Shown piece after piece: positions 2,675-20,824 of a DNA stretch of 20,933 bases (position 1 is its first letter; every line of letters begins with the position of its first letter). The stretch covers positions 1-20,933 of IMG/VR virus record IMGVR_UViG_3300037193_000801; one strand, given 5' to 3'. The translations under genes were made by a program, and so were the position numbers. The DNA is from a virus. The notes below the pieces were generated by a model. It saw only the letters and a list, made by a program, of their open reading frames with translations. It did not search any database and had not been told where the DNA came from.

Positions 2675-2837
2675 CCTCGCGCACAAGCGCCGGGAGATCC
2701 GGGACCGCGACTTCAGCACCTACGACCGGGCCACCCTGACCCGCCAGTGCGATGCGCTGGCGAACCGGGTGGACGAGATCCTCGCGGAGCTGGAGGTGAT
2801 CGACCGCCTTCAGCTCCCTCAGACGGCGACCGCCTGA
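2622..2837 (+). CDS. Small helical protein, unknown
   Basis: This 71-residue protein is not recognised. I chose the ATG at 2622, inside the end of the WhiB-like gene, because GAGGAGCG lies just upstream and the sequence before it is not protein-like in this frame. The product is almost entirely predicted helix with heptad-like leucines (LREHAHRLQDDL, then LANRVDEILAELEVI), so it probably forms a coiled-coil hairpin or dimer. It overlaps the WhiB-like gene by 53 bp, implying coupled expression, and its 3' end overlaps the convergent glycosyltransferase gene by 19 bp. It could be a partner or modulator of the WhiB-like protein, by position only. Confidence 0.72.
   Translation: MTLTVAELREHAHRLQDDLAHKRREIRDRDFSTYDRATLTRQCDALANRVDEILAELEVIDRLQLPQTATA
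2819..2837. other. Convergent gene overlap forming an imperfect palindrome
   Basis: The last codons of the rightward gene (TGA at 2835-2837) and the leftward glycosyltransferase (TGA complement at 2819-2821) overlap over 19 bp. The overlap is itself an imperfect palindrome: TCAG and CTGA at the ends, an A/C mismatch, then CGG/CCG around a CGA loop. Both stop codons sit at the palindrome ends. Confidence 0.6.
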
Positions 2838-3916
2838 GACCGCTGGAGATCGCGGGCCCGGCTCCACGCCTCCAGCCACCGCCAGGAGTGCTCCCGGAGC
2901 CTGAGACCCTCGGCCACCCCCCTGCCCGCTTCCGCCAGCTCCTGGCGGAAGCGGGCATTTTGCGTGAGACGGGTCAGTTCCCGGTGCCAGCGCCGGGGGG
3001 TGTCGGCGAGGACTCCGGCGCCCCGGCGGTGCAGCCGCTCGTACTCCGCGCGCGGGGACGCGACCCACGGGACCCCGAGCGCACTCAGCTCCAGAGGCTT
3101 GAGCCACGACTTGCAGGCGTTGAAGCGGGTGTCCGCCAGAGGTGCGATCCCCACCCCCAGCTCCGCGACCGCTGCGGGCCACTGTGCAACCCCTACGGGG
3201 CCCGAAGCTCCCTGTGGGTCCTCTCGCAGCCCGAAAGCGGCCCCGACACCTATCGGGTCACCCACCACCCTGAAAGCCTCCCCTGCGGCCACGAGGCGCG
3301 CGACGGCACCCCCTACAGCCGACGGGTCGTCCGGGTGGGAGTGCAGGGACGCGGGCCAGCCCACGACGGCGGAGTCCTCGTGGGGCACGCCGAAGTAGAT
3401 GTCCGGCAGGTAGTTGAACAGCACCTGGCCTCGCCCGTGGGAGGCGTACCGGGCGAGCAGGGCCGGGGTGGAGACCGTCACGAGGGTCGCGTCCCGGCAC
3501 GCCTGCTTCAGGTTCAGCCAGCTGTGCCGGGTGACCTCCCGCTTGACGGGGTCCCACGTCCCGCTGTTGCGGGGGTGCAGTGCCTCGTACGCCGGGTTGC
3601 TCGGGTGGATCGACCCCAGGTGGTCGTCGATGTCGACCACGACGGCGGCCCCGGCCTCCCTCAGGAGCGGGACGCACTGCGCCATCCACGAGTGAGTCAG
3701 GCGCTGGAACACGTAGACGGCGTCCGGGTCCGCGTCCACGACCTCCACCACGCGCTCCCCCTCCATGCGCAGCTTGAGGTCGCGCTCGGTCGGCGGCCGG
3801 ACCTCCACCGTGACGTCGTCCGGGAGCGCGCCGGAGGCACGCAGCGCCTCCACGGGCCAGATCAGCCTGAAGTGTCCGCATCCGGTCGTGTCGGCCGGAT
3901 AGACCTTGATCCTCAC
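2819..3916 (-). CDS. Glycosyltransferase, GT4-like
   Basis: This 365-residue protein resembles GT-B fold (GT4-like) glycosyltransferases, which move a sugar from a nucleotide donor to an acceptor. It starts MRIKVYPADTTGCGHFRL, as in the N-terminal Rossmann half. VVVDIDDHLGS lies at 92-102, a GWPASLHSHPDD stretch at 186-197 fits the start of the second half, and the donor-site-like GIAPLADTRFNACKSWLKPLE begins near 256, followed by ELSALGVPWVAS. The length suits the family. The GTG start overlaps the stop of the previous gene (GTGA). It is the last gene of the late operon, past lysis, so likely acceptors are a virion protein or a host surface component. Substrate is unknown. Its 3' end holds a terminator for the opposite strand. 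Confidence 0.75.
   Translation of the reverse strand: MRIKVYPADTTGCGHFRLIWPVEALRASGALPDDVTVEVRPPTERDLKLRMEGERVVEVVDADPDAVYVFQRLTHSWMAQCVPLLREAGAAVVVDIDDHLGSIHPSNPAYEALHPRNSGTWDPVKREVTRHSWLNLKQACRDATLVTVSTPALLARYASHGRGQVLFNYLPDIYFGVPHEDSAVVGWPASLHSHPDDPSAVGGAVARLVAAGEAFRVVGDPIGVGAAFGLREDPQGASGPVGVAQWPAAVAELGVGIAPLADTRFNACKSWLKPLELSALGVPWVASPRAEYERLHRRGAGVLADTPRRWHRELTRLTQNARFRQELAEAGRGVAEGLRLREHSWRWLEAWSRARDLQRSQAVAV
2923..2961 (+). terminator. Rho-independent terminator inside the glycosyltransferase gene
   Basis: A perfect 16-bp stem (TGCCCGCTTCCGCCAG at 2923-2938 with its complement at 2942-2957) closes a CTC loop and is followed by TTTT at 2958-2961. The T-run follows the hairpin only on the + strand, so it is oriented to end the rightward operon, 86 bp past its last stop codon. 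It lies fully within the 3' part of the leftward glycosyltransferase coding sequence, around residues 320-331. Confidence 0.75.
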
Positions 3917-4125
3917 GGCGTGCCCGGATCCTTCACGGTGCGGGGCCGGGACGCGGAGCCGGAGCCCCTGGCGGTCTGCGCCCGCGCCGCCTTTTCCGGA
4001 GGGCTCAGCCGGTCCTTCAGGTCGGCCACGTCCTTTTCCAGGGCGTCCAGTCTCCGGTCCGTCTCGCCCGTGAGGGCGCGGACCACGGACTCCACCATCT
4101 CCCTGATCTGTGCGGCGGCGCTCAC
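3913..4125 (-). CDS. Small coiled-coil protein next to the endolysin
   Basis: This 70-residue protein has no firm assignment. The GTG at 4125 overlaps the stop of the amidase gene. Residues about 5-42 form a heptad-patterned helix (IREMVESVVRALTG, then RRLDALEKDVADLKDRL), strongly suggesting a coiled-coil oligomer. The C-terminal 25 residues are basic, Ser/Gly/Pro-rich and probably disordered. There is no membrane segment or signal peptide. Placed between endolysin and glycosyltransferase, it might be a lysis accessory or a regulator, but nothing in the sequence decides this. Confidence 0.7.
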   Translation of the reverse strand: MSAAAQIREMVESVVRALTGETDRRLDALEKDVADLKDRLSPPEKAARAQTARGSGSASRPRTVKDPGTP

Positions 4126-5021
4126 TGGGGGCCCTCCAGCCGGAAGGCGAGGCCGTTCAGCTTGTCGGCGATGTCGGCCGGGAGCCGGGACAGATCGATC
4201 GCACCCAGGGTGGCTCGGATCGCCGTGAGGGCCTCGCCGTTCGCGCGCACCTGCGCGAGGATGTCGTCCACGTCCTTGGCCGTGGCGCGGCCGGTCGTGG
4301 TCTGCGCCTGCACGTGGGACGCGAACGTCCAGAACGGGTTCGTCTCGGCGGTCTCCGCGTCCGGCGGCGCCTTGAGCAGACCGTCCGTGGTGAAGATCCG
4401 CTCGATGTCGGACCCCTCCAGGACGCCTCCCCCGGCGATGAGCTTCTTGACCACGGCGTCCGCGACCTTGGTCACGTCGGCGTCGGTGAGTGCCACGTCC
4501 TCGTCTCCTCCCACGTCCCCGGCGATCAGTCGCGGCAGGACGATGTCGTTGAACTGCTCGGTCCGGATCGGACCCGGACAAGCTGTGCCCCCGGTGGACC
4601 ACTCGGGGAACATCTTGTGGTAGCCGAATCCGGGGTCGGTCCAGCTCCGGCACTTGCGCCGGGGGATGCCGTGCTCCTCGGCGGCCCAGTCCATGGCCCG
4701 GACCAGGGTGTTGATCTGCGCATCCGTCCAGGGATCCGAGTTGGACGTGTTGGCGGCCGACTCCAGGCTGATGGCCCTCGGGTTCGCCTGCGCGTTGGCG
4801 TCGGCCCGTGTGTTGGTCCCGATGTACTGCGCCAGGCGGCCGTCATACCCAAGGCCGAAATGACTTTCTAGGTTCGTGCTGTCCCGCCAGTACTGATACA
4901 GCCGCTCGACGGTCCACGGAGCGGCGATGCTGTGGGCGATGAACTGCGTGGGCTGGATCGCGGCCTGAGCGTCGGACTCCGGCTGCAACTCCATCTTCTT
5001 GGCGAACGGGCACCAGCTCAT
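4122..5021 (-). CDS. Endolysin: N-acetylmuramoyl-L-alanine amidase (Amidase_2/PGRP type)
   Basis: This 299-residue protein cleaves the bond between N-acetylmuramic acid and L-alanine in peptidoglycan. The zinc site of the type-2 amidase fold is visible: His30 (FIAHSI), His135 (GYHKMF) and Cys148 (GGTACPGP). Other family marks are the SHFGLGYDGRLAQYI strand at 53-67 and ISLES at 84-88. The ATG at 5021 overlaps the upstream membrane-protein stop (ATGA) and has GAGAGGAG before it; the longer upstream extension is not protein-like. There is no signal peptide, so a holin is needed for access to the wall. The C-terminal 140 residues contain helical, Ala-rich sequence (NPFWTFASHVQAQTTTGRA near 230-250) and no cell-wall-binding module that I recognise. 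Confidence 0.9.
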   Translation of the reverse strand: MSWCPFAKKMELQPESDAQAAIQPTQFIAHSIAAPWTVERLYQYWRDSTNLESHFGLGYDGRLAQYIGTNTRADANAQANPRAISLESAANTSNSDPWTDAQINTLVRAMDWAAEEHGIPRRKCRSWTDPGFGYHKMFPEWSTGGTACPGPIRTEQFNDIVLPRLIAGDVGGDEDVALTDADVTKVADAVVKKLIAGGGVLEGSDIERIFTTDGLLKAPPDAETAETNPFWTFASHVQAQTTTGRATAKDVDDILAQVRANGEALTAIRATLGAIDLSRLPADIADKLNGLAFRLEGPQ

Positions 5022-5547: not shown

Positions 5548-5830
5548 GAGGCCCCCTTTCGTTCATTGCTCCCACCGGCAGCGCCTGTATGACGCGGGTG
5601 GTCGTCCGGTTCGCCTCCATGAGGGCCGTGATGTGGTCCCGCTGTACTTCCTGGCCCTCGATGGCCTTGTCGTACGCAGCTTTCCACAGGTCTATCTGAC
5701 GGTCCTTGTCGGCGCGCATGTCGTCGACCTGACTCCGGGGGACGAGCCTCCCCGTGAAGATCATGTAGATGACGACGGCGAGCAGGCCCCCGGCCCCGAG
5801 GGACGGAGTGAGCATCGCTGTGTAGTCCAT
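5519..5830 (-). CDS. Single-pass membrane protein with cytoplasmic coiled coil (holin candidate)
   Basis: This 103-residue protein has one clear membrane segment near 10-28 (LGAGGLLAVVIYMIFTG). It is followed by LVPRSQVDDMRADKDRQIDLW and a long charged helix to about residue 80. This layout, one N-terminal segment plus a coiled coil with a QVDDMRADKDRQI-like patch, recurs in actinophage lysis modules and is often called holin or a membrane protein of unknown role. The ATG start has GAGAGGGA upstream. It lies just after the last of the three paralogous tail genes and before the second membrane protein, so the two may act as a holin/antiholin pair. Confidence 0.7.
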   Translation of the reverse strand: MDYTAMLTPSLGAGGLLAVVIYMIFTGRLVPRSQVDDMRADKDRQIDLWKAAYDKAIEGQEVQRDHITALMEANRTTTRVIQALPVGAMNERGPHALAEAEEE

Positions 5831-5839
5831 ACGTCCCTC

Positions 5840-6391
5840 TCACAGGGGGAGCACCCACAGCCTCCGGTCGGCGGCCGTGCCGGTCCCGGAACTGACGTTG
5901 TACTCCAGCTTGAACGTGTTCGATCCGGGCGTGAGGCCCGTGGCCAGGTCCACCACGCCGGTCCGGGTCTTGAGGCCGTTGACGCTGTTGGACACCGAAT
6001 ACCCGACGGACCGTGTCGTGGAGGCCGCGCGCGTGGTCGCCCCGGAGATCGAGTAGCTGGCCTCCACACGGGCCGTCGTGGACGGTACCTCCAGGTAGGA
6101 ACGGTATCCGACGAGCGCCTGCACCCCTGTCGTGACCGTGACGGACGGTCCGGCGGAGCCGGTGGCCGGGTCGGCGAACGTGGTGGACGTGAAGGTGGCG
6201 GTGCCGGTGTCGATGGCGGCGCCGGGGATGCGCTCCGCGATCTGGTTCGTCCCCGAGACGGCGAAGATGGAGCCGGGCGTGGTGGCCTTGGCCGGTGCGG
6301 TCTCGTTGAGGTTGTCGCGGACGTAGGTGTTGAACTGCGCGGCCTGGAACACGGCTCCGGCAATGGCAGTCATGGGGGCTGTCCAGGCCAC
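5840..6391 (-). CDS. Small tail protein, paralogue A
   Basis: This 183-residue protein belongs to a three-copy family in the window. The N-terminus (MAWTAPMTAIAGAVFQAAQF, then YVRDNLNETAPAKAT) is the conserved region, probably the attachment part. The C-terminus (LTPGSNTFKLEYNVSSGTGT, then RRLWVLPL) is beta-rich and Thr/Ser-rich. There are no enzymatic motifs. Such proteins after the tape measure and hub genes are usually minor tail or tail-tip proteins that may contact the receptor. At the DNA level its N-terminal region matches copy C while its C-terminal half resembles copy B, so it looks mosaic. It overlaps none of its neighbours and is followed by the lysis module. Confidence 0.8.
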   Translation of the reverse strand: MAWTAPMTAIAGAVFQAAQFNTYVRDNLNETAPAKATTPGSIFAVSGTNQIAERIPGAAIDTGTATFTSTTFADPATGSAGPSVTVTTGVQALVGYRSYLEVPSTTARVEASYSISGATTRAASTTRSVGYSVSNSVNGLKTRTGVVDLATGLTPGSNTFKLEYNVSSGTGTAADRRLWVLPL

Positions 6392-6401
6392 GGCGGTCTC
6401 C

Positions 6402-6974
6402 TTAGAGCGGGACGACGAACAGGCGCCGGTCGTTGACCACGCCGGATCCGGAGCTGACGTTGTACTTGAGGGTGAAGGTGTTCAGGCCCGGAGTCAGCTC
6501 CGTCGCGAGGTCCATCCACCCGGCCCGCAGGTTCAGGCCGGATGCGGAGTTGGACACGGAGTAGCCGATGGACCTCGTCTTGGACGTCTCCACGCTCGTC
6601 TCCCCCGAGATCTCGTAACTGGCCTCGCACCGGGCGCTGACGGACGCGTTACGGATGTTGACGCGGTACCCCACCAGAGCCTGTACCCCCGTCAGGACCG
6701 TGACGGCCGGGCCGGGGGTGGAGGGGCGCTCCGTGGAGTTCTCGTTCTCGGGGTCCCCGAACGACGTGGACGTGAAGTCGACGGACTGGGTGTCGATGAT
6801 CGACGCGGGGGTGCGCTGGACGATCCGGTTCGTGTCGGACGCGGCGAACCAGGACCCGGCGGACGTCGCTCGGGACGGCATGGTCTCGGCCAGGTTGTCC
6901 CGGATGAAGGTGTTCCACTGCGCCGCCGTGAAGACGGACCCGGCGACCGCTGTGAACGGGGCTGTCCACGCCAT
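6402..6974 (-). CDS. Small tail protein, paralogue B
   Basis: This 190-residue protein is the middle member of the three-copy family. It starts MAWTAPFTAVAGSVFTAAQW with FIRDNLAETMPSRAT following. It ends LTPGLNTFTLKYNVSSGSG, then RRLFVVPL. The ATG at 6974 shares its A with the stop of the upstream gene (TGATG). I rejected a longer reading frame extending to 8042 because that region is already coded by other genes. Compared with copy A it has a short acidic insertion (ENENSTERPSTPGP) in the middle. It is probably a virion tail-tip or fibre-like protein; receptor contact is inference. Confidence 0.8.
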   Translation of the reverse strand: MAWTAPFTAVAGSVFTAAQWNTFIRDNLAETMPSRATSAGSWFAASDTNRIVQRTPASIIDTQSVDFTSTSFGDPENENSTERPSTPGPAVTVLTGVQALVGYRVNIRNASVSARCEASYEISGETSVETSKTRSIGYSVSNSASGLNLRAGWMDLATELTPGLNTFTLKYNVSSGSGVVNDRRLFVVPL

Positions 6975-7270
6975 CAGGACCCCAGGTCCGGATCCGGAGG
7001 CTCTAGGTGCTCCTCGTCGATGACCGGCGGCCGATAGGGCAGCTGCGGGTAGTCGGCGTCCCGTGCGTTGGTCAGCACGGTGTTCATCTCGGGGTCCGTG
7101 GCGGTCCCCTTGAGGAACAGGATCCGCAGGATGCAGCCGGTCACCACAGCGCCGGACACCGCGAGGGCGCGCACCGGAAGGTCTGCCTGGCGCAGGTCGT
7201 ACCCGAGTTTCTGGCTGACGGCGGACTGCACCCTCCAGACCTGGAGCGCGTACTGCTTGATGGTGGCCAT
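6974..7270 (-). CDS. Small protein between tail paralogues, unknown
   Basis: This 98-residue protein is not recognised and is unrelated to its paralogous neighbours. It starts MATIKQYALQVWRVQSAVSQ with GTGAGG just upstream of the ATG. It has a moderately hydrophobic stretch at about 34-55 (ALAVSGAVVTGCILRILFL) that is too polar at its edges to call a membrane segment with confidence. It ends in a Pro/Glu/Asp-rich tail (PPVIDEEHLEPPDPDLGS). Its position inside the tail-gene array suggests a small structural component or an adaptor, but no function can be read from it. Confidence 0.7.
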   Translation of the reverse strand: MATIKQYALQVWRVQSAVSQKLGYDLRQADLPVRALAVSGAVVTGCILRILFLKGTATDPEMNTVLTNARDADYPQLPYRPPVIDEEHLEPPDPDLGS

Positions 7271-7276
7271 GGGTCC

Positions 7277-7816
7277 TCACAGGGGGATGACGGCTATCTC
7301 GCGCCGCTGGAAACGGGCGGTCGACGACCCGGCCCGGTACTGCATGGTGAAGGTGTTCGACCCGGCAGTGAGACCGGTGAAGACGTGGAACATCCCGTAC
7401 CGCACGAAGTTGCCCGCCTGCACCCCGTCGGAGAGCAGGGCCCAGCTGTCCGACGCGGAGACGGAGGACGCCCCGGTGACGGCGACGGAGGACAGGCACG
7501 CGGAGTTGGCCGTGTCGTTGGCCTGGCTGGCGGCGAAGTAGACGATCGCGATCGTCCCGCAGGTGACGGAGAGGGACGGGCCCGGCGTCGCCAGGTCGGT
7601 GTACGACGTGGACGTGGTGCTCTCGTTGGTGGAGACGGACGTGGTGCTCGGAGTCCTCGTCGTGATCGCGTTTGTTCCCGTGGAGACGAACAGCTGGGAC
7701 GCGGCTGTGGCCTTGGCCGGTGCGGTCTCGTTGAGGTTGTCGCGGACGTACTGGTTGAACTCGGCCGCCGAGAACGTCGCCCCGGAGACCGCCGTCATGG
7801 GCGCGGACCAGGTCAT
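7277..7816 (-). CDS. Small tail protein, paralogue C
   Basis: This 179-residue protein is the first-transcribed member of the three-copy family. It starts MTWSAPMTAVSGATFSAAEF with YVRDNLNETAPAKAT following, almost identical to copy A at 34-48. The middle and C-terminus diverge (FHVFTGLTAGSNTFTMQYRA, then RREIAVIPL). A 44-bp stretch (7707-7750) is identical to 6282-6325 in copy A. It is rich in Ser, Thr and Ala, with beta-type spacing, and has no catalytic motif. Its ATG overlaps the stop of the zinc-ribbon gene upstream (TGATG). It is probably a tail-tip protein with a common anchor and a variable outer part. Confidence 0.8.
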   Translation of the reverse strand: MTWSAPMTAVSGATFSAAEFNQYVRDNLNETAPAKATAASQLFVSTGTNAITTRTPSTTSVSTNESTTSTSYTDLATPGPSLSVTCGTIAIVYFAASQANDTANSACLSSVAVTGASSVSASDSWALLSDGVQAGNFVRYGMFHVFTGLTAGSNTFTMQYRAGSSTARFQRREIAVIPL

Positions 7817-8175
7817 CAGAGCACCCCGTGTTCCTCGTTCTCGTCGAGCAGGTCACGCACGCTCTGCCCGTGGGGGACGTGGAAGTTGACGGCCACCGGG
7901 TGGTCCTTCGGGTACCAGTTCCGGGTCTGGGGGACCGGCCGCAGGGAGAGCACCTGGAGGATCTCGTGCTCACGGTCCGGCCACTCGATGCCCGACTGGA
8001 TCCCGCAGTTGGAGCACAGGTAGAACGGCCTCCGGACGTCACGGGGCCCGTTCATCCGGGACGGGGTATACAGGAACTCCACGTTGCCGCAGCTACGGGG
8101 GCAGTCGGCCACCCACTCGCCGCTGTAGACGTACGCGCGGGCGACGGTCTGCACCTCGCTGGGTGTCTCGAACAA
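7816..8175 (-). CDS. Zinc-ribbon protein in the tail region (TTG start)
   Basis: This 119-residue protein carries paired cysteines, C25-x3-C29 and C54-x2-C57 (DCPRSCGN and YLCSNCGIQ), typical of a zinc ribbon. The C-terminal half (RNWYPKDHPVAVNFHVPHGQ) has no recognised domain. The start is TTG at 8175, chosen because a strong GAGGAGGGACC site lies directly before it and the next in-frame start would remove the first Cys pair. It sits between the large minor tail protein and the tail paralogues, so it is either a virion component stabilised by zinc or a small assembly factor. Confidence 0.75.
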   Translation of the reverse strand: MFETPSEVQTVARAYVYSGEWVADCPRSCGNVEFLYTPSRMNGPRDVRRPFYLCSNCGIQSGIEWPDREHEILQVLSLRPVPQTRNWYPKDHPVAVNFHVPHGQSVRDLLDENEEHGVL

Positions 8176-8184
8176 GGTCCCTCC

Positions 8185-10572
8185 TCAGGTCCCGAACAGG
8201 CCCGTGTCGAACACGCCCTGAGTGGGGTGGTCGAAGATGAACACGGTCGAGGCATTATCCGCCGTGATCGGGTCGAACACGCCCTGGTCGAACCCCGAGC
8301 CACGGACGTCGAACCTGAAAGGGTTCGCCGTGGAGACGAGGTCCCGCTCACAGCCGAAGACCACGGCGTGCACGGGAGGCTTGCCGTCCTGGTTGATGCG
8401 CCGGACCGTGTGGGTGACCCTCTCCACGAAAAAGTCCGCGTCCAGGCTGGCCTCGCCGTGCGTGATGTGGATGCGGTCGCTGACCGTCCGGGTGAGGATC
8501 TGGACGAAGTGCTCCGGGTTCTCGGAGACCACTCTCAGCTGCACCGTGGGGCGCCTCTGCGCGTACTGGAGCAGGACCATTCCGGCGATGGCGTCCGCAT
8601 CGTTCGCGTTCGCCCACGGGGCCGCGTCCGGGTAGGCGCGCTCGCCGTGCAGGGTGATCGAGCCGGTGTCCTGGCGGGTGACCTTGATCGTTTTGGTCAC
8701 GGTGATCGGCTTGGCGCGCAGCTTCAGGGACGACACGACCACGGCGCCGCCCACAGCCAGGAGGGTGATCTTCACGGACTGGCCGGAGGTCCGGGACATG
8801 ACCACGTTCAGGGTCCCGGCGCCGGACACCGTGTAGTCCGTCCCGGACACCGGGGTGACGGCGTCCACGAACGGGTCCGACGTGGAGATTGCGATCTCCG
8901 TGCTCTGGCCGATGCCGAGGGAGATCGTGTCTTCCGACGTCCAGACGTCCTCCAGGTCCCCGCTGACGATCCGCTCCGGCACGTCGAACGAGACGGAGTT
9001 GATGATGTCCCTCCAGCCGTGGGCGTAGGTGAAGGGCGCCGTGAAGTCCAGGCCGGTCGACGCGGGGGAGTCACAGCCCACGGCCTGTGCGGAGAACTCC
9101 GCCTGGACGCTGACCGACTCCGTCCGCAGCAGCCGGTGGTGCCGGTCCCGGAAGATGAAGGTGTTGTCCGGGCCGACGTAGGCGATGGACGGCGGGCCCT
9201 CCGACTTCACCAGCTCATTGATCGCGGCGAACGCGTCCGTGCCCTCCGCCCACCAGTACGGGACCACGGTGGCCCCGAGGTCGATGTCCCGGCCGCCGGT
9301 CCATCCGGCCAGGTCCAGGATCGTGTCGATGAGCGCGCCGGTCCGCATGGCTGTGTAGACCCCGGTCGACAGCTTCACGCCCTGGAGATCGTTGAGCCCG
9401 TCCAGGAACGTGAACTCCACCGTGCGGTTGGCCCGGTCCACCCGCAGGTCGTAGTCGTCGATCCGGCCTCGCGCGATGGGGTACGTGGTGGTGTCGTACT
9501 GCACCTGTGCCCGCATCTCGCGGGCGGGGTTGAGGTCCCCGAACAGGGGCGAGGACGGGTCGTCCGGGTAGTACGTCCCGTTGGAGTTGTTGAGCGTGAA
9601 CGCCGATGAGCCCACGGCCGCCGGGTTGAGCTGACGCTCCTGGTCCCGGCCGTAGGTGGCGGTGACCTCGGAGATCAGGTCGGGCGTCACGTCGTCGCCG
9701 GGGCTGAACGACCCGTCGCCGTCCCAGTCCACCTCGAACGCGTACTGGGGCAGACCTCCTACGGAGCACAGGTCCCAGGGACCCGAGACGGCCTGCACGG
9801 TCGCGTCGTACGCGGTCCCGGCCGCCGTCGCGGTCCCGGCGGACGCGTTGACCACGGTGGCCGTGGAGGCGGGCTTGAGGGCGATGGAGAATCCTGCGGA
9901 CCCGTACTCCAGGAACGCATCGCTGGACGTCGTGGTGCGCTGGGTCTGGAGCCCCGGCGCCAGGCCCCCGTTCGAGTCGTACAGGGCCGCACCCAGCTCG
10001 CCGAACCCGTCATTGTCGTCAACGCGTTCGGAGTTGGTGCCGCCCGAGATCGTGAACGTCTGCGCCGTGTCGCCAGAGCTGCCCGCCCGGACGGTCAGGA
10101 GCCAGTCCTGGTTCACCGCCGTGGTGAGCTGCGGGTGCGCGAACGCCGCGTCGGTCGAGACCGTGGAGGACTGCGACCAGGTATCGATCGGACCCGTGGT
10201 GTCCACGCCCGTGTAGGCGGCCGTGAACGCGATCAGGTACGGGTCCCCGGTGGGCCACGTCTGTGTGCTCACGGAGAGGCTGACCGATGCCCCCAGGGAC
10301 CCGTTGTCGACCCGGTGCCAGACGATCAGGCGGGGGTACCCCTTGTACGGGGACTGGGTGGACGGGGCGGGGTTGGATACAGCGAGCAGGGTCCACCCGG
10401 CGGGGGTCGGCGGGTTGAGGTTGTTGTCCGCCAGGTAGACGAGGATGAGCCAGTCCCCGCTGGCGTGTCCGGCCGGGAGCGCGACGCTCACGCTCGTGGA
10501 CCCTCCGCCGGGAGGAAGCGTGGCCACGTCCAGCTTGGTCCGGGCGCCCGCAGCTTTGAAGGCGATGGCCAT
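8185..10572 (-). CDS. Large minor tail protein (hub/tip-like)
   Basis: This 795-residue protein follows the tape measure gene, where siphoviruses encode distal tail and hub proteins. Residues about 1-245 resemble a beta-sandwich of the kind seen in phage tail and carbohydrate-binding proteins (SVALPAGHASGDWLILVYLA). From about 265 on, DLCSVGGLPQYAFEVDWDGD begins a hub-like section with FTLNNSNGTYYPDD and a YPIARGRIDDYDLRVD stretch, as in actinophage minor tail proteins. The C-terminus repeats a short motif (QGVFDP, then QGVFDTGLFGT). The ATG abuts the tape measure stop, with GGGGAGG inside the end of that gene. No enzyme motif is visible. It probably links the tail tube to the tip proteins downstream. 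Confidence 0.8.
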   Translation of the reverse strand: MAIAFKAAGARTKLDVATLPPGGGSTSVSVALPAGHASGDWLILVYLADNNLNPPTPAGWTLLAVSNPAPSTQSPYKGYPRLIVWHRVDNGSLGASVSLSVSTQTWPTGDPYLIAFTAAYTGVDTTGPIDTWSQSSTVSTDAAFAHPQLTTAVNQDWLLTVRAGSSGDTAQTFTISGGTNSERVDDNDGFGELGAALYDSNGGLAPGLQTQRTTTSSDAFLEYGSAGFSIALKPASTATVVNASAGTATAAGTAYDATVQAVSGPWDLCSVGGLPQYAFEVDWDGDGSFSPGDDVTPDLISEVTATYGRDQERQLNPAAVGSSAFTLNNSNGTYYPDDPSSPLFGDLNPAREMRAQVQYDTTTYPIARGRIDDYDLRVDRANRTVEFTFLDGLNDLQGVKLSTGVYTAMRTGALIDTILDLAGWTGGRDIDLGATVVPYWWAEGTDAFAAINELVKSEGPPSIAYVGPDNTFIFRDRHHRLLRTESVSVQAEFSAQAVGCDSPASTGLDFTAPFTYAHGWRDIINSVSFDVPERIVSGDLEDVWTSEDTISLGIGQSTEIAISTSDPFVDAVTPVSGTDYTVSGAGTLNVVMSRTSGQSVKITLLAVGGAVVVSSLKLRAKPITVTKTIKVTRQDTGSITLHGERAYPDAAPWANANDADAIAGMVLLQYAQRRPTVQLRVVSENPEHFVQILTRTVSDRIHITHGEASLDADFFVERVTHTVRRINQDGKPPVHAVVFGCERDLVSTANPFRFDVRGSGFDQGVFDPITADNASTVFIFDHPTQGVFDTGLFGT

Positions 10573-13500
10573 CTAGGGCAGCCTCCCCTTCCGCTTGATC
10601 GACGTCAGCGACTCCACCAGCCAGTCCTCGGTCTCCTGGCGGCTGCCGATCACCCCGTGGTTCTCGATGACGAGCCGCTCCACGGTAAGCCCTCCGCCCC
10701 CGGTCGCCAGAGCGGCCGTCCGGCGCGCGTTGAGGACGCGCCAGCCTGCCGGGCTGTACCCCATCTCCGGGCCGTCCTCCCCGAACAGGTGCCAGCCTCC
10801 GACCGTCCCGTTGGTCCCGTTGCGGTACCCGCCCTTGCGGTTGTAGGCGCGGGGCAGGGAGCCGTAGGCCGCCAGCGCGTACCGCATCGAGGAGTAGATG
10901 TTGGCTGCCGGATTGACGGACACGCCGTACAGGAACGGGCCCGTCTTGCGGTACTTGCCCGCATACGAACGGAACGTCGGGCCGATCACCTGCATCAGCC
11001 CGACCGACGGGTGACCGGCCTTCCAGTTGCTGTCCCACTTGTTGACGATCGTCGGGTTGCCGCCAGACTCCTGGTTCATCCGGCGCAGCGTGATGCCTGT
11101 GTACGCGGCGGGCTGGCCGACCTGCCGGAGCATCATCTGCACGACCCCGGCCCACCTCTTCACTCCGGAGCCCCCGCTGGAGCCGAGACCGACCGCGCTG
11201 CCGATGCCCCCGAGGATGTCCCCGGCGGAGTCCTTCACCGCCTTGATGAGCCCGTCCACGGCCATCCGGGGGAGCTTGGTGGCCATCTTGACCCAGGGGG
11301 AGTTGCCCAGCTTGGACATGCCCGACAGGGAGGCCAGCAGCAGCTTCTTGGCCTTGCCGACAGGGTCCCCGAGGAAGTCGGCGACGCCCTTGGCCGCTCC
11401 GGTCGCGGCCCCGGTCACCTTGCTGGCCGCCTTGCCGAGGGTCCCGAGGATGCCCCCGTCCTCCATGAAGTGCGCTCCGGCCGCCTCCCACAGCCCGCGC
11501 GCGCGGGTGGCGTACTTCGGGTCCGTGGGGATCACGTACTCCGGGTACGCCGGGTTGCCCTCGCCGACGATGGCTGTGGGCCGGTTGAAGATCCCCATGC
11601 CGGACCTGCCGACCGTCCCTCCGGCCGCCAGCTCCTTGACCGTCTTCAGCCCGTTCTTGATCCCGATCCAGCCTGCGATCTTCCCCCAGACCGAGACGAT
11701 CCCTTTGTTCCACACGTTGCGCAGCACCCAGTTGATGGGCGACTTGGCCTTGTTCTTGATCCCGTTCCAGATCACCCCGATACCGTCACGCATGTCGGAA
11801 AAGAACCCTTTGACCTTGTCCCGCAGGGTGCGGGCCCAGCCGGGGATCGTCTGGGTGAAAAAGGTCCGTATCGGACTGAAGACGCGGTTCTTGATGCTGG
11901 TGAAGACTCCGGAGACCCGGTCGCGCAGGCCGTTCCAGGCGCCCACGACCCGGTCGCGCAGGGCGCGCGCGGCGCCGGGGATCGTCTGGGTGAAGAAGTT
12001 GATGATGGGCCGGATGACGAACCGCTGGTACAGGCCCCACGCCGCCCGGACCCCCGAGACGATCAGGTTCCAGAACTGGACGATCTTGTTCCAGACGAAC
12101 TTGGCGGCCCCCGGCACGGCCTCCAGGTAGAACCACAGGAACGGCTTGACCAGGAACTTGTAGTACAGACCCCAGGCCGTCTTGGCGGCGCCCCAGATGA
12201 AGTTCCAGTACTGGACGATGATGTTCCAGACGAACTTGGCCGCTGCGGGCACGGCTTCCGTGTAGAACCACAAGAACGGCCGGACCAGGAACTTGTAGTA
12301 CAGGTCCCAAGCCTTTTTGAAGAAGTCGACAAAGGGACCGGCGAACCAGCGGCCGATCGCGGCGGCCACGTTCTTCACGCCCTCCATCGCCTTGTTGACG
12401 ATGTTGCGGAACGTCTCGGATTTCTTGTACGCGAGGATGAAGGCGCCCACGAGCAGCGCGATTCCGGCGATGATCAGTCCGATGGGGTTACTGATGATCG
12501 CGATGGCGAGCAGGCGGAACCCGGTCGCGGTGAGCACGAGACCGAGACGGAGCGCGACGAGGCCGTACCGGAAGGCGAGCATGACGCCGGAGGCGACCCG
12601 CATCGCGAGGCTGAAGGTGGCGGTTGCAGCTGCCGCGATCCGGCTGGCCAGCGCGTGCGCCACGAGGGATATCCGGTGCGCGACGAGGACAACCCGGCTG
12701 GCGTAGGTCACGCCCGTGCTCGTGGTGACCGACGTGGTGAACAGCCACGTGGCAGCTGTCGCGGCAGCGGAGTAGATCGCGTACAGCTTCATTGCTGTGT
12801 TCACCGCGAGGATCGCGGGGACCAGCACCTGGAGGACCGGGGTGGGGATCGCGTCGATGATCTGCGCGAAGATACCGGCGATGGTGATTCCGACCCCGGC
12901 CAGGGGTCCGGCGGAGTCGGAGATCTTCCCCATGGCCTCGGCGATGGAGCGAAACAGATCCCCCAGCTTGGGCCCGGCGTTCTCGGCGGTCTGCACGAAG
13001 GTCTGGAAGCCCCCGCTGGAGCCCAGGTTGGCGCTCCAGTCGGCGAACCGCTGGCCCATCTCGGCCATGCCCCCTCCCACGCGCTCCTGGAAGGGGGCGA
13101 ACGCGTTCAGGATCCCGAGGATCCCCGCCACCATGTCCTTGCCGAAGGACAGGAAGTCGCGGAGCGCACCCCCGGCGTTCTTGCGCATGTTGTCGCCGAA
13201 CTCGCGGAAGATCCGCCCGGCGGACCCCTCCCCCAGGGTGTCCATGAATCCCTGGATCGCTCCGGCCGCCGACCTGACGAACGGGGTGAGGCTGGGCAGG
13301 AGTCGGCGGACCCCTTGCAGGGCGCGGGTGAAGATCGGCATCGTGGCGCCGCTGAGGGAGTCGGACCACCGTTCAAAGTCGTCCTTGAGCCCCAGGAACT
13401 CCTTGGCGGTCGCCCTCGTCGCCGGGGTCATCTCCGCCATCTTGGCCTTGTATTCGTCCTGCGCCTTGCGCGCGGCGTTGGACGCCGTCTTGGACTCCGA

Positions 13501-13914
13501 CAGGGCCTTGTTGTACTTCAGCGCCTCCTCGCGCGCGGTGTCCGTCATCTTGGACGTGATCTTGATGGAGGCGCCGTACTCCACGCCGAACTTCTTGGCG
13601 ACCTTTTGGGCGTACGCCTTGGCCTGGTCCGCCTTGGCGCTCTTCTCCTGGGCTGTCTTGTACTTCTCGTTCGCGTCCGTAATTTTCTGGAACTGCGGGA
13701 TGACAGCAGCGCCGAACGCTCCGGCCGCCGCTCCGGCGGACGCCAGCGCGCCGCCGATCGCGCCGATCCCCGTGGCCACGAGAGCCGTGGCCGGGAGGAG
13801 CGTGGTCGTCAGCGCGCTGGCGGCGATGGACCCGAAGCCCTTGAGCGCTTTCAGGGCGGGCTTGGTGTCCGACTCGATCCGGACGAACCCTGTGGCGACC
13901 AGGATGCTAGCCAT
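10573..13914 (-). CDS. Tape measure protein with lytic transglycosylase domain
   Basis: This 1113-residue protein sets tail length and is ejected with the DNA. The N-terminal 200 residues are Ala/Lys-rich helices (SAKADQAKAYAQKVAKKFGV). Residues about 360-500 hold several hydrophobic segments, and 535-711 form about four 45-residue repeats. The last 180 residues resemble a soluble lytic transglycosylase domain: MNQESGGNP with a probable catalytic Glu near 949, GLMQVIGPTF, and an AYGSLPRAYNRKGGY stretch. This domain would open peptidoglycan during DNA entry. The ATG overlaps the chaperone stop by 8 bp. The gene length predicts a tail of very roughly 165 nm by the usual 1.5 angstrom per residue rule. 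Confidence 0.93.
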   Translation of the reverse strand: MASILVATGFVRIESDTKPALKALKGFGSIAASALTTTLLPATALVATGIGAIGGALASAGAAAGAFGAAVIPQFQKITDANEKYKTAQEKSAKADQAKAYAQKVAKKFGVEYGASIKITSKMTDTAREEALKYNKALSESKTASNAARKAQDEYKAKMAEMTPATRATAKEFLGLKDDFERWSDSLSGATMPIFTRALQGVRRLLPSLTPFVRSAAGAIQGFMDTLGEGSAGRIFREFGDNMRKNAGGALRDFLSFGKDMVAGILGILNAFAPFQERVGGGMAEMGQRFADWSANLGSSGGFQTFVQTAENAGPKLGDLFRSIAEAMGKISDSAGPLAGVGITIAGIFAQIIDAIPTPVLQVLVPAILAVNTAMKLYAIYSAAATAATWLFTTSVTTSTGVTYASRVVLVAHRISLVAHALASRIAAAATATFSLAMRVASGVMLAFRYGLVALRLGLVLTATGFRLLAIAIISNPIGLIIAGIALLVGAFILAYKKSETFRNIVNKAMEGVKNVAAAIGRWFAGPFVDFFKKAWDLYYKFLVRPFLWFYTEAVPAAAKFVWNIIVQYWNFIWGAAKTAWGLYYKFLVKPFLWFYLEAVPGAAKFVWNKIVQFWNLIVSGVRAAWGLYQRFVIRPIINFFTQTIPGAARALRDRVVGAWNGLRDRVSGVFTSIKNRVFSPIRTFFTQTIPGWARTLRDKVKGFFSDMRDGIGVIWNGIKNKAKSPINWVLRNVWNKGIVSVWGKIAGWIGIKNGLKTVKELAAGGTVGRSGMGIFNRPTAIVGEGNPAYPEYVIPTDPKYATRARGLWEAAGAHFMEDGGILGTLGKAASKVTGAATGAAKGVADFLGDPVGKAKKLLLASLSGMSKLGNSPWVKMATKLPRMAVDGLIKAVKDSAGDILGGIGSAVGLGSSGGSGVKRWAGVVQMMLRQVGQPAAYTGITLRRMNQESGGNPTIVNKWDSNWKAGHPSVGLMQVIGPTFRSYAGKYRKTGPFLYGVSVNPAANIYSSMRYALAAYGSLPRAYNRKGGYRNGTNGTVGGWHLFGEDGPEMGYSPAGWRVLNARRTAALATGGGGLTVERLVIENHGVIGSRQETEDWLVESLTSIKRKGRLP
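11782..12312 (-). repeat. Tandem 135-bp repeats in the tape measure gene
   Basis: Four units of 45 codons run from 12312 leftward: 12312-12178, 12177-12043, 12042-11908 and a shorter one from 11907. Units 1 and 2 are close to identical in protein (AWDLYYKFLVRPFLWFY and AWGLYYKFLVKPFLWFY). Units 3 and 4 share FFTQTIPG followed by AR and LRD. A 21-base string is identical at 12148-12168 and 12283-12303, exactly 135 bp apart. This fits growth of the tape measure by unit duplication. Confidence 0.85.
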
Positions 13915-14987: not shown

Positions 14988-15490
14988 CAGGGACGCTCCA
15001 GCGCGACGAGGACGCGGAGGGTGAAGCCGACACAGTCGCCGTTCGGTCCGGCCGACTCCGCAGGGGTCACGAGGTAGTCACTGATCTCGTCGGCATCGTC
15101 CATCGAACACATCAGGACCGCCAGGGCGTCCATGGTCTCGGCGATGTCCTGGAGGAGCAGGCCCGCTGCGTTGTCGAGGTCCGCCGCGAAGGGCGCGATG
15201 TCCTGGCCGTCCGGCTGAGGGGCGCAGCGGACCACGGACACGGTGTACTCCCCTACCTCGTACGGGGCCCGGCAGCGGGCCCCCACGGGCGTCTCCTGCT
15301 CGGCGGGGAACGCTTCCGATAGGTAGACGCGGGGCACCGTGACGTACAGGGCTCCGTCGCAGCTGCACTCGTCCCAGGCGATGTCTCCGGGGACCTGCCC
15401 CGCGCGCGCGACGGACGAGGAGAGCCCCGTGCGGACGGCGGTGACGATCCGGGCCCCCACGGTGTACCAGCGTGCCGACCCGGTAATCAC
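14987..15490 (-). CDS. Neck protein, tail-terminator candidate
   Basis: This 167-residue protein has not been matched to a named family, but it sits between the adaptor and the gp10-like gene, where the tail terminator or head closure protein belongs. It begins with a helix (WYTVGARIVTAVRTGL), then a beta-rich middle with cysteines (WDECSCDGALYVTVPRVYLS, later RCRAPYEVGEYTVSVVRCAP). A helical segment and a final strand (GDCVGFTLRVLVALERP) complete it. This helix-plus-sheet order fits the tail-terminator fold. The GTG start overlaps the adaptor stop (GTGA) with GGAGGGCGGGG upstream. Several cysteine pairs suggest metal binding or disulfides. Confidence 0.6.
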   Translation of the reverse strand: MITGSARWYTVGARIVTAVRTGLSSSVARAGQVPGDIAWDECSCDGALYVTVPRVYLSEAFPAEQETPVGARCRAPYEVGEYTVSVVRCAPQPDGQDIAPFAADLDNAAGLLLQDIAETMDALAVLMCSMDDADEISDYLVTPAESAGPNGDCVGFTLRVLVALERP

Positions 15491-16278
15491 GTCCCCGCCC
15501 TCCGGTGCAGGACCTGGTCCACGCTGTAGACCCGGCCGCGCTGCGTGAGGCCGTGAGGGTTCTCGGCCGCGAGGAACATGTCCACGAGGTACAGGCCGGT
15601 GCGCCCGTCCTTCAGGAGCTGGCCGACGTCCGGGTACTGGATCGTCACGCCCTGGCGGACGAGCTGGGTGACGCCGGGCGGCAGTCGGCAGTCCAGTCCG
15701 GCTCCGGCCTTGCTGATCTCGCAGGCGAGCTCACCCATCGCGAGACGGGCCCCCTCAGGCACGTCCTCGCCGTACAGGGCCGTTACGGACCACGTGCCAG
15801 CCTCTGTGTCGTCCTTGCTCAGATCGTTGCAGAGAGGCCACTCCTGGCCGTCCGTACGTACCAGCAGCCGGTTGTTGTCGACCCGGTACGCCCCGGTGAC
15901 GAGCGGGGTGCCGTCGACCTTCACCTGGACGATGCTGTTGACGGGGGAGGGGAGGACGACCTCAGAGACGCGGGAGCACGAGCAGCCGGTGGTGCAGGCA
16001 CCGCAGGCGAGCGGGAACCAGTAGCGGTACGAGGACCAGACCGAGGTCCCGAGCACGGAGTTGTCCCACTCGGTCCACCCCCACGGCCAGGAGTCGTAAC
16101 AGTCCTTGCGGCACGGGCGGAGCGTGGTCTGGCACGTGCCGAACCGGCGGCCGGAGAGCGACCACAGCACCCGCGTCGCCATCGATACGGCGTACCCGGT
16201 CACGGCCGGATCCAGCGAGGACGTCTGGCACGTCCAGTGGATCGGCCAGTTCTCACAGGGCCCGAAGTCAGCAGTCAC
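15487..16278 (-). CDS. Head-to-tail adaptor, Cys-rich
   Basis: This 263-residue protein fits the head-to-tail adaptor of actinophages by its position and sequence: an N-terminal ENWPIHWTCQTSSLDPAVTG helix region, VLWSLSGRRFGTCQTTLRPC, and a later RVDNNRLLVRTDGQEWPLCN strand pair. The C-terminus (TGLYLVDMFLAAENPHGL, then VYSVDQVL) is usual for these adaptors. Cysteines are very frequent near 49-101, including CGACTTGCSC, which could bind zinc or form disulfides. The GTG start has GGGAGGT upstream and follows a 234-bp spacer. Adaptors form the ring under the portal that seals the packaged head and docks the tail. Confidence 0.7.
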   Translation of the reverse strand: MTADFGPCENWPIHWTCQTSSLDPAVTGYAVSMATRVLWSLSGRRFGTCQTTLRPCRKDCYDSWPWGWTEWDNSVLGTSVWSSYRYWFPLACGACTTGCSCSRVSEVVLPSPVNSIVQVKVDGTPLVTGAYRVDNNRLLVRTDGQEWPLCNDLSKDDTEAGTWSVTALYGEDVPEGARLAMGELACEISKAGAGLDCRLPPGVTQLVRQGVTIQYPDVGQLLKDGRTGLYLVDMFLAAENPHGLTQRGRVYSVDQVLHRRAGT

Positions 16279-17019: not shown

Positions 17020-17314
17020 CGGACACCATCCTCATACGGGCCGCAGGCGCCAGCACGGTGCAGTCCTCGCCATCGTCCCGCACGGTCATGATGGCGGCGA
17101 CCGGGCGCCCCTCGCCATCGCACTGTACGGTCTCCCGGCCCACGTAGTCCTCGCGCTCCCGCGCCACCACCTTGCAGCGGGTTCCCTCCAGGACCATGGG
17201 CGCGAGGAGCAGGCGCAGGCCCGTGCAGCGGTGGAAACGGTTGGTCTGCCCCTCCGTCACGGCCGTGGCCGGACAGTTGGGGCAGACCCAGCGCTGCTCC
17301 GCGTGAAGGATCAC
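17003..17314 (-). CDS. Small zinc-finger-like protein in the tail block
   Basis: This 103-residue protein has an N-terminal metal-like motif, CPNC at 11-14 followed by FHRC at about 27-30, then APMVLEGTRCKVVAREREDYVG and a short C-terminal section. The GTG start at 17314 overlaps the stop of the probable major tail protein (GTGA); there is no clear ribosome binding site, so translation is likely coupled. I rejected the longer frame to 18016 because the other frame is coded by the tail protein there. Similar CPNC plus EREDYVG proteins sit in the structural block of other actinophages, from memory. Function unknown. Confidence 0.68.
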   Translation of the reverse strand: MILHAEQRWVCPNCPATAVTEGQTNRFHRCTGLRLLLAPMVLEGTRCKVVAREREDYVGRETVQCDGEGRPVAAIMTVRDDGEDCTVLAPAARMRMVSDGVER

Positions 17315-18009
17315 GTAAGGGTGGTCGGGTTGCACGCCGCTGTCGGCGGAGCCGTGGTCGTGATGTTCCACAGCCAGTGCTCCCCGGTCCCGAGCGTCTC
17401 CCCGGACGGCAGCCAGCTCGTGCTGGAGCCCGGCCCGTTGAGCCAGCCGACGGTCGCCGTGGTCGACCCGGCCTGGGACTCGCTCATGAGCTGGAACGTG
17501 GAGCGGCCGTTCTCGATGGAGTACGAGCCCAGCTTGCTCGCCCCGAGGTTCGGCCACGCGTTGTAGATGTACCGCTGCGCGCCGGACGCGTCGCACGCCC
17601 CGGATCCGGCGACTTTCTGCCAGACCTCCAGCGAGTACCGGTTCGACGGGGACCCCTCCGCGAACGCCATGCCGGACCCGGTGACCCCCGCTCCGGACGC
17701 CGTCAGCTCCCGAGCGCTGGTCATGAAGGCCAGCATGGTCGTGTTGACCTCGCAGAAATCCATCGTGAGCTGGAAGCGCTTGAGGACAGGGTCGTCCTTC
17801 TGGTTGACACAGACGGTGCCGTCGGCGGTCCGCTCGAAGAATTCCTCTCCGTCCTCGTACTGCGGCTCGTTCTGCACCTGCACGAATCCCTTGGTCACGA
17901 CGACCAGGGAGCCGGTGCCGGTGACCGGGAGACCGCAGGAGTCCAGACGGACCACGCGCATGTGCGTTCCCTTGATCGGGGTTGCGCATGCAGAGACTGT
18001 TGCTACCAC
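17311..18009 (-). CDS. Probable major tail protein
   Basis: This 232-residue protein matches the pattern of actinophage tail tube proteins: an N-terminal strand set (GSLVVVTKGFVQVQNEPQYE), the DGEEFFERTADGTVCVNQKD loop region, then LKRFQLTMDFCEVNTTMLAF and a middle SNRYSLEVWQK strand. Tail tube subunits stack in rings between neck and tip. The GTG start at 18009 has AAGGGGTGA upstream. The order is unusual, since the chaperone and tape measure lie several genes further on, with the neck genes between, so the role is probable rather than certain. Its stop overlaps the next start. Confidence 0.6.
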   Translation of the reverse strand: MVATVSACATPIKGTHMRVVRLDSCGLPVTGTGSLVVVTKGFVQVQNEPQYEDGEEFFERTADGTVCVNQKDDPVLKRFQLTMDFCEVNTTMLAFMTSARELTASGAGVTGSGMAFAEGSPSNRYSLEVWQKVAGSGACDASGAQRYIYNAWPNLGASKLGSYSIENGRSTFQLMSESQAGSTTATVGWLNGPGSSTSWLPSGETLGTGEHWLWNITTTAPPTAACNPTTLT

Positions 18010-18964: not shown

Positions 18965-20752
18965 TCACACCTTAACCGCAGCGACCCCGGCACCGACCGT
19001 GCCGTCCACCCGGATGGCTGCGGTGTACCGGCGGGACTGGTGACCGACCTTGGCGATCAGGTGGCACTCCTCCGCCCACAGCGCGGTGAAGTCGTTCTCC
19101 GCGTTGAGGACGGAGTCCCGGATGACGCCGAGGTCCAGCTGAAGGCCGTTGCCGTGGACGAACGTGCCTGCCGCGTACAGCATGAACTCCACGCTCGTGG
19201 GCCAGGCGGCCAGGTTGTTGGTGCTCACGCCCGGCAGGCCGGTGCCGCGCACCTGGTAGTCGCTGACGAACTGCGGCCGGACGTTGCGCGCGGTGAACAT
19301 CGAAACGATCGTCGCGTCGGCCACGGCCATGTCGTCGGGGCTGTCGTTGCCGGGCTTGTAGCCGAGGTCGGAGCGGGCCATCTCCAGCACCCAGTACGGG
19401 AGCACGACCTCCAGGACGGCGTTCTCGTCCATGGCGAACCGGGTGCGGTAGTCGGTCGCGGCGAGGGCCACGGCGTTGGGGAGCTGCGGGATGACACCGT
19501 GGGCGGCCGTACCGATGCTCACCGCCGACTCCGATGCGGTCTGCATCAGGCTGATCAGGCGCGCGTTGATGGCGTGGGCGTAGGCGGCGCGGAGGAGCTG
19601 GATGAAGTTCTGGGTGCTCTCCGGGTAGGCGTCGTCCGTCAGGTTGCCCGCCGTGAGGCTGATGCCGTAGCACTCCAGCCGGACCTCGCTGAACGAGGGG
19701 CAGGGAACCCGCAGGGTCGGCTTGTTGACGGAGCCTGTGACCGTCAGGGCGTCGTCAGACTCGGTCCACAGCCACGGGTCAGTCGCGTTGCTCATCGAGA
19801 ACGCGAACCCGCCGAAGCCGGACGCGGGGCTGGACCCGGCGTTGGCCTGGAAGAACGTGTCACCGATGGCGGGGGAGACGGGGAAGCGGATGCCGCCCCG
19901 GCTCACGCCGACGGTCGGCAGGTCGATCATCCGGGGTGCGGCCGACGCGATGTTGAAGAAGTCGTACTTGACCTCGGAGGGGGCGCACCATCCACCACCG
20001 GCCACGAGAGCGTCGGCGGAGTCGACCCCGTCCACCATCGAGCGCAGCAGGCGCTCGACCTCGGCATGGGCGGTCCTGTTGTCCACCGTGTGCTCGAACC
20101 GGTTGCGGACGGACGCCACGAGGTGACGCGCGGCGCCCTGTCCGGCCATGGTGACCGGGATGGCCTTGGCCTTGGAGCGGAACGCTTCCCCGAGGGCCTC
20201 CAGGGTCGGCAGAGTCTGACCGGCCTGCACGCCGGGGATGTCGACGGACGCGGTGATGGCGTCGGTGCGCTCGGGGACACGAGGGTCCGGAGCACGGTCG
20301 CGGGTGGCGGACAGGGTCGCGAACCGGCGCTTGGCCTGCTCCAGCTTCCCCTGGTCGTCCCCGAACAGCGCGAGGGCGACACCCTGGGCGGTCGCCTGGG
20401 TGAGTGCGGCGAGGTCGACGCGGTCGCCTCCGGCGGTGACGGCCGCCGTGGGCTCGCCCCCGTCGCCGGGGCCGTGGACCCGCTCACTGAGGGACGCCAT
20501 CTGGCGCTCGGTCTCCTGGCGCGCGAGGGCTGCCTGCTCGTCGGCGCGGGTCTTGCGCACCCGCAGCTCCGCCCGGATCTTGTCCAGGTCCCCGGTGAGA
20601 CGCTGCGCGTAGATGACGTCGTCCGGAGTGCGGGTCTCCAGACCCATCACCCGGTCGAACTCCGCCACGGCCTGCGTCTCCAGGGACTGGAGATCCGCGT
20701 CCCCCACCAGGGTGAGGTCAGCGGGTGCTTCGAACAGCTGAGGCTCCGGCAC
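18965..20752 (-). CDS. Major capsid protein with N-terminal scaffold-like region
   Basis: This 595-residue protein is the major capsid protein by position, length and motifs. The region after about residue 210 looks like an HK97-type shell protein (GGGWCAPSEVKYDFFN at 252-267; RTAHAEVERLLRSMVD before it; YPESTQNFIQLLRAAYAHAI later). Residues about 15-95 are a charged coiled coil (QRLTGDLDKIRAELRVRKTR) and 95-210 a Gly/Pro/Ala-rich linker, as expected of a scaffold (delta) domain fused to the capsid protein. The GTG at 20752 is chosen because GGAGG sits at close spacing; the upstream 24 residues are promoter-like DNA. No maturation protease is in the window. Confidence 0.85.
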   Translation of the reverse strand: MPEPQLFEAPADLTLVGDADLQSLETQAVAEFDRVMGLETRTPDDVIYAQRLTGDLDKIRAELRVRKTRADEQAALARQETERQMASLSERVHGPGDGGEPTAAVTAGGDRVDLAALTQATAQGVALALFGDDQGKLEQAKRRFATLSATRDRAPDPRVPERTDAITASVDIPGVQAGQTLPTLEALGEAFRSKAKAIPVTMAGQGAARHLVASVRNRFEHTVDNRTAHAEVERLLRSMVDGVDSADALVAGGGWCAPSEVKYDFFNIASAAPRMIDLPTVGVSRGGIRFPVSPAIGDTFFQANAGSSPASGFGGFAFSMSNATDPWLWTESDDALTVTGSVNKPTLRVPCPSFSEVRLECYGISLTAGNLTDDAYPESTQNFIQLLRAAYAHAINARLISLMQTASESAVSIGTAAHGVIPQLPNAVALAATDYRTRFAMDENAVLEVVLPYWVLEMARSDLGYKPGNDSPDDMAVADATIVSMFTARNVRPQFVSDYQVRGTGLPGVSTNNLAAWPTSVEFMLYAAGTFVHGNGLQLDLGVIRDSVLNAENDFTALWAEECHLIAKVGHQSRRYTAAIRVDGTVGAGVAAVKV

Positions 20753-20795
20753 TGTAACCTCCGTGGGTGACGGCCGAATGATCGTTGTCGCGCGC

Positions 20796-20824
20796 ACCGT
20801 AGCAGACGAAACCGGCCCGCCCAA
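20796..20824 (-). promoter_or_regulatory. Candidate late promoter upstream of the capsid gene
   Basis: On the - strand TTGGGC (20824-20819) and TACGGT (20801-20796) are separated by 17 bases, a vegetative-type layout. The start of transcription would lie near 20788, giving a leader of about 36 bases to the capsid GTG. The match to consensus is partial (3 of 6 in each box), so this is a candidate only. Confidence 0.4.

Follow-up and report, generated by a model that had tools for sequence, protein, structure and literature searches.

Tandem Putative Lectin-like Tail-tip Proteins in Phages Related to Streptomyces Phages: Position-specific Paralogs with Probable Short-tract Gene Conversion

Introduction

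The accessory baseplate proteins of some mycobacteriophages end in domains that recall soluble bacterial lectins. Thus, gp60 of mycobacteriophage Corndog is a trimeric upper baseplate protein whose C-terminal domain resembles PDB 6TID, that is the BC2L-C lectin, and similar domains in mycobacteriophage baseplates were proposed to meet cell-wall glycans (PMC13252515). The lectin PLTL is a trimer that binds the sugar between two of its protomers, and fucose is contacted by residues Thr80, Ser89, Arg91, Arg117 and Tyr53 (PMC12914763).

The locus described here carries three tandem genes, A, B and C, related to such domains. With a probability of about 0.68, these genes are considered to encode tail-tip adhesins, namely old and position-specific trimeric glycan-binding knobs, which would undergo occasional short conversion and larger swaps between phages. 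The family to which they belong appears to be previously unnamed and, among characterised phages, known by its C-terminal domain only (PHROG 7565). To our knowledge, phage receptor binding in Streptomyces has been little studied.

Organization of the Locus

The window, i.e., the whole stretch of 20,933 bp that was analysed (IMG/VR record IMGVR_UViG_3300037193_000801), belongs to a phage related to Streptomyces phages and includes a siphophage structural module encoded on the minus strand. This module comprises the genes of the major head protein (18965-20824, minus strand; PHROG 777), the major tail protein (17311-18009, minus strand), the head-tail adaptor (15487-16278, minus strand) and the tape-measure protein (10573-13914, minus strand; PHROG 4197, E 8e-79). 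The tape-measure gene is followed, still on the minus strand, by a 795-aa tail-tip gene (8185-10572), a 119-aa gene (7816-8175), gene C (7277-7816), a 98-aa gene (6974-7270), gene B (6402-6974) and gene A (5840-6391), then by small genes, a holin (PF23778) and an amidase endolysin (PF01510). A glycosyltransferase gene (2819-3916; PHROG 7162) lies after the lysis genes. The placement of the array, beside tail-tip genes, after the tape measure and before lysis, fits that of a siphophage baseplate accessory or upper baseplate protein.

The original prediction had recognized a family of three tail genes whose coordinates agree exactly with the ORF list, and A, B and C are indeed paralogs of about 180 aa: C, the first copy of the array, encodes a protein of 179 aa predicted to form a TNF-like knob, B, the second, a protein of 190 aa, and A, the third, which begins with GTG, a protein of 183 aa. 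At the protein level, A shares 62% identity with B and 43% with C. The resemblance of the C-terminal half of A to B, also pointed out earlier, is borne out (61% identity to B versus 30% to C). In its N-terminal half, A is as close to B as to C (63% identity in each case), codons 23-37 being the one stretch where it is nearer to C. Within these codons lies a block of 44 bp (6282-6325, minus strand) that is repeated exactly in C (7707-7750, minus strand), just as had been noticed. It is the sole exact run of at least 14 bp common to A and C, and no run of this length is shared by A and B.

Distribution and Genetic Neighbourhood of the Family

Related loci were sought in IMG/VR and GTDB genomes using A, B, C, an alignment of the three and the tip protein as queries; B alone retrieved five loci only. 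The family comprises 206 full-length members distributed in 98 loci, with one to seven copies each. One copy is found in 35 loci, two in 40, three in 12, four in 6, six in 4 and seven in 1, these numbers being minimum counts because of contig ends. Where a host is named, it is Streptomyces, apart from one "Actinobacteria bacterium" and one Planotetraspora. Two loci (L060 and L063; NZ_JOCT01000029.1 and NZ_MUKA01000058.1) lie on Streptomyces contigs whose entire lengths, 95,726 and 92,743 bp, equal those of the virus records, which would fit extrachromosomal prophages (phage-plasmids). Two others (L029, positions 3665-4892, and L059, positions 5705-6770) carry long ORFs (355-409 aa) where about 140 other residues interrupt the family domain. 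These ORFs consist of the N-terminal part, an insert, then the C-terminal part again, and are possibly fused or nested copies.

In every one of the 98 loci, the first copy is immediately preceded by the 119-aa gene, a constant and previously unnamed partner of the array. The product of this gene, a possible adaptor with zinc-ribbon-like cysteines, matches no PHROG; in Pfam, nothing exceeds the cut-off, the similarity to Zn_ribbon_GRF_2 being weak and below it. A homolog of the tip gene is found upstream of the 119-aa gene in 97 loci. Homologs of the 98-aa gene are present in 22 of the 98 loci, mostly between copies 1 and 2, and homologs of the glycosyltransferase are encoded downstream of the array in 66.

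No Pfam family matches A, B or C, and tblastn searches with A and C against 50,697 phage records returned nothing, whereas the family consensus reached mycobacteriophages in the same records. The PHROG 7565 minor tail protein profile is matched by A (4e-11), C (5e-12) and B (0.0015) over its positions 737-880 of 882, and 108 of 113 members match it with E values down to 7e-21. The matches of A, B and C start at position 737 or later, and the large N-terminal part of the profile (its first ~740 positions) matches nothing in them; reciprocally, the N-terminal anchor of the family has no PHROG match. A sequence search of the PDB gave retroviral integrase matches that were rejected as chance (E 0.12 and above). 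In the literature, no title or abstract retrieved described minor tail genes arranged in tandem in phages of Streptomyces.

Predicted Fold and Variability

AlphaFold models of A and C, built with family alignments, have a high mean confidence (pLDDT 94.2 and 95.3, respectively). Both predicted structures include a helix at residues 17-28, short beta strands at residues 42-67 and then a beta-rich domain. The best matches among solved structures are the TNF-like lectins PLTL and the N-terminal domain of BC2L-C (Z 12.5-13.3, rmsd 2.2-2.5 over 116-121 residues), while lower-ranked folds are Pgp3, ExsF, C1q and TNF (Z 8-11). In particular, predicted residues 55-183 of A match PLTL (Z 13.3, rmsd 2.4 over 119 residues) and predicted residues 55-179 of C match the PLTL and BC2L-C lectins (Z 13). 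The TNF-like jelly roll of these lectins is thus found in the models of both proteins.

Variability is unevenly distributed along the proteins. The anchor helix has a low entropy (0.85 bits), and a W-P-T...N...RDNL motif is conserved in the N-terminal part. Entropy reaches about 3-3.3 bits on strands 95-101, 129-132 and 140-150 of the jelly roll, and strand 107-111 is also variable. A conserved anchor and variable strands are what is expected of a fixed base and a variable face.

Phylogeny and Order of the Copies

It had been proposed that A arose by recombination from a C-like gene, which gave the N-terminal part, and a B-like gene, which gave the C-terminal part. The 44-bp identity with C and the B-like C-terminal half of A, on which this proposal was built, are both real. 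However, half-gene DNA trees of 35 members from 13 phages (codons 1-57 versus the remainder) agree for A, which groups in both with third copies of related phages. In the N-half tree, A belongs to a supported six-row clade (95/92) with L068_3, L074_3, L143_3 and L094_3, and in the C-half tree it branches with L068_3 (100/99). Furthermore, the N half of A is equally identical to B and to C, and outside codons 23-37 its DNA is no nearer to C (similarity over codons 1-22 of 0.74 between A and B and 0.67 between A and C). A recombinant origin of A therefore has very little probability left, and the earlier statement is corrected here. In the same trees, C groups with first copies in both halves, while B is unresolved in the N-half tree and joins a second copy, L068_2, in the C-half tree.

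The mosaic history that had been suggested holds insofar as some recombination has occurred in the family, not for A as a product of C and B. Thus, copies 2 and 3 of the phage L094 group with their orthologs by their N halves but are apart from them by their C halves. In the phage L146, copies 2 and 3 share a common C-half type with N halves from different groups.

Over the whole family, changes between "first" and "later" labels on the tree number 15, against 43.6 when the labels are shuffled (minimum 39). Copies from the same genome are not more alike than copies from different genomes, contrary to what would be expected of a concerted or shuffled multigene array. As judged from these comparisons of sequences, the copies are old paralogs kept in a fixed order, with no wholesale shuffling, and they correspond to two position-specific types, a first and a later one.

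This bears on another reading, in which the array would be a store of receptor-binding alternatives that recombine and are reshuffled for a change of host range. A variable jelly-roll face, a conserved N terminus, tandem copies and some conversion patches are features that such a store could have, and the C halves have a small excess of nearest relatives in their own genome (12 of 149 versus 2.0 with shuffled genome labels, maximum 8). However, N halves do not have this excess (2 of 149 versus 2.0), and the order type of the copies is maintained. Copy number is equal in all 11 locus pairs whose tip proteins share at least 84% identity and differs from about 83% down. Moreover, all copies are full genes, each provided with a start codon, so that no silent cassettes are seen. 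A store of alternatives thus appears distinctly improbable. Rather, since the copies are old and position-specific paralogs, a multi-copy phage would most likely carry several different knobs at once.

Short-tract Gene Conversion

The 44-bp block encodes YVRDNLNETAPAKAT, which is the family consensus, so that the match between A and C at the protein level needs no recombination. The match at the DNA level is better explained by recombination. Given the same amino acids, agreement in all 14 codons would have a chance of about 2e-4 with the codon usage of the window and 2e-5 with that of the family. Besides, synonymous agreement between A and C concerns 14 of 15 codons in the block versus 28 of 55 elsewhere (Fisher p = 0.002).

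The alternative is convergence, in which conserved residues and a strong preference for high-GC codons would have produced the identity with no gene conversion. It has some arguments in its favour: the block spells the consensus, unrelated phages reach 42 identical bases of 44, and family-wide synonymous identity is slightly higher within genomes than between them. Nevertheless, the low chance calculated under the codon use of the window, the sharing by A and C of the rare codon GCA and the existence of a C allele with six silent differences at the block in a closely related phage (see next section) all argue against convergence. The same is true for another pair, copies 1 and 3 of L068, which agree in 14 of 15 codons in the block versus 25 of 54 elsewhere (p = 0.0008). 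As the codons of L068 differ from those of the window and include the unusual AGG, ACT, GCT and CCT, this is an independent patch at the same place. Furthermore, exact runs of at least 25 bp between first and later copies are found in 15 of 96 within-genome pairs versus 20 of 662 pairs between close genomes (p = 5e-6), i.e., an approximately six-fold enrichment within genomes. Convergence thus seems quite unlikely. The 44-bp match is best read as a probable case of short-tract gene conversion, which is infrequent and scattered: occasional conversion between copies of the same genome would have left the A/C patch. A role of codons 23-37 as a general conversion hotspot was also considered and rejected, as long within-genome runs are distributed over the length of the gene and synonymous identity in these codons is only slightly raised.

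Conversion in the window likely proceeded from A to C. The block of A is two bases from that of L074_3, an A-type ortholog in another phage, while the block of C departs from the orthologs of C. This points to A, or to an A-like donor, as the likely source and to C as the likely recipient.

Exchange between Sister Phages

A sister phage, IMGVR_UViG_3300031911_000002, is 98.7% identical to the window over 18,573 bp. The comparison of the two phages reveals no difference in A and B, including the block of A, whereas a cassette (6986-7984, minus strand) that includes gene C together with the greater part of the 98-aa gene and a portion of the 119-aa gene contains 122 differences over 999 bp (12% divergence). 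The boundaries of this cassette are sharp, its lower edge lying 12 bp above the start of B, although such a boundary could be mimicked by strain-mix assembly, the window, the sister and most of the relatives being viral contigs of metagenomic origin. The C gene of the sister phage lacks the 44-bp match to A: it has six differences within the block, all synonymous, so that C matches the block of A in the window only. The 98-aa gene that lies in the cassette differs together with gene C.

With A and B unchanged between the sisters and C in a divergent cassette, it is C, and not A, that appears to be the recently exchanged gene. Either sister phage could hold the newcomer allele. Such larger swaps would occur by homologous recombination between related phages, and this pair offers a clean case of natural allele replacement at a single copy. 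A second divergent patch (15071-15757), with 53 differences over 687 bp, covers the head-tail adaptor and the next gene, so that genes other than those of the tail tip also undergo cassette exchange.

The exchange of outer domains with a change of host range, which the original prediction had put forward, finds no evidence here. Between the sisters, the difference in the C cassette is mostly silent (42 synonymous versus 12 nonsynonymous codon differences in gene C).

Proposed Function

The lectin-like fold, the homology with Angel gp22 (see next section) and the parallels with Corndog gp60 and PLTL lead us to propose that the products of A, B and C form trimers, which would serve as glycan-binding knobs at the tail tip. 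Their attachment to this structure is suggested by gene order, and docking, trimer formation, glycan binding and simultaneous display are what we infer from these likenesses. The first ~40 residues of each protein, with the helix 17-28 and the conserved motif, would serve to dock it at the tail tip, with the 795-aa tip protein, which is the presumed attachment site, and/or the product of the 119-aa gene as probable partners. From about residue 53 to the end, the protein would form a TNF-like jelly roll assembling as a trimer and binding cell-surface glycans of the actinobacterial (Streptomyces) host.

The proteins could instead have a structural role, decorating or cementing the tail as knobs that bind no receptor, as TNF/C1q-like folds are also found in non-lectin structural knobs such as the spore proteins BclA and ExsF and in virus capsids. 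However, the nearest structural matches of A and C are lectins, their variability is highest in one part of the jelly roll, and contact with cell-wall glycans has been proposed for similar domains of mycobacteriophage baseplates (PMC13252515). A purely structural role is therefore unlikely.

If the proteins are adhesins, the array might also work as a rack of lectin knobs, a possible but doubtful extension of the proposal. The helix would act as the address of each knob to its own place on the tail tip, copy number would determine the number of different glycans that a virion can read simultaneously, and short conversion would keep the docking motif in step as the knobs diverge. A family with one to seven lectin-like copies is a ready comparison set for what extra adhesins add.

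Comparison with Known Systems

A first likeness is with minor tail proteins of cluster-G Mycobacterium phages. The knob can be aligned to the ~125 C-terminal residues of Angel gp22 (hhalign 98.6%), and the gene of this PHROG 7565 protein is likewise located among minor tail genes before lysis genes. However, in Angel the domain ends a single-copy protein of 797 aa, whereas the family consists of stand-alone proteins of about 180 aa that have their own anchor and occur in one to seven tandem copies. Corndog gp60 is a trimeric accessory baseplate protein with a BC2L-C-like end (PMC13252515), but it is a 281-aa protein encoded by one gene, with a beta-rich anchor, unlike the tandem knobs.

PLTL from Photorhabdus and the N-terminal domain of BC2L-C from Burkholderia have the same jelly-roll fold (Z ~13 over ~118 residues). 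They share only 10-14% sequence identity with the knobs and are soluble bacterial lectins rather than phage parts. The CBD of the short tail fibre of cyanophage A-1(L) and a chain of the portal-tail complex of cyanophage A4 also provide TNF-like domains of tail proteins (Z 8.7-9.7), but these are included in longer proteins and match less well than the lectins.
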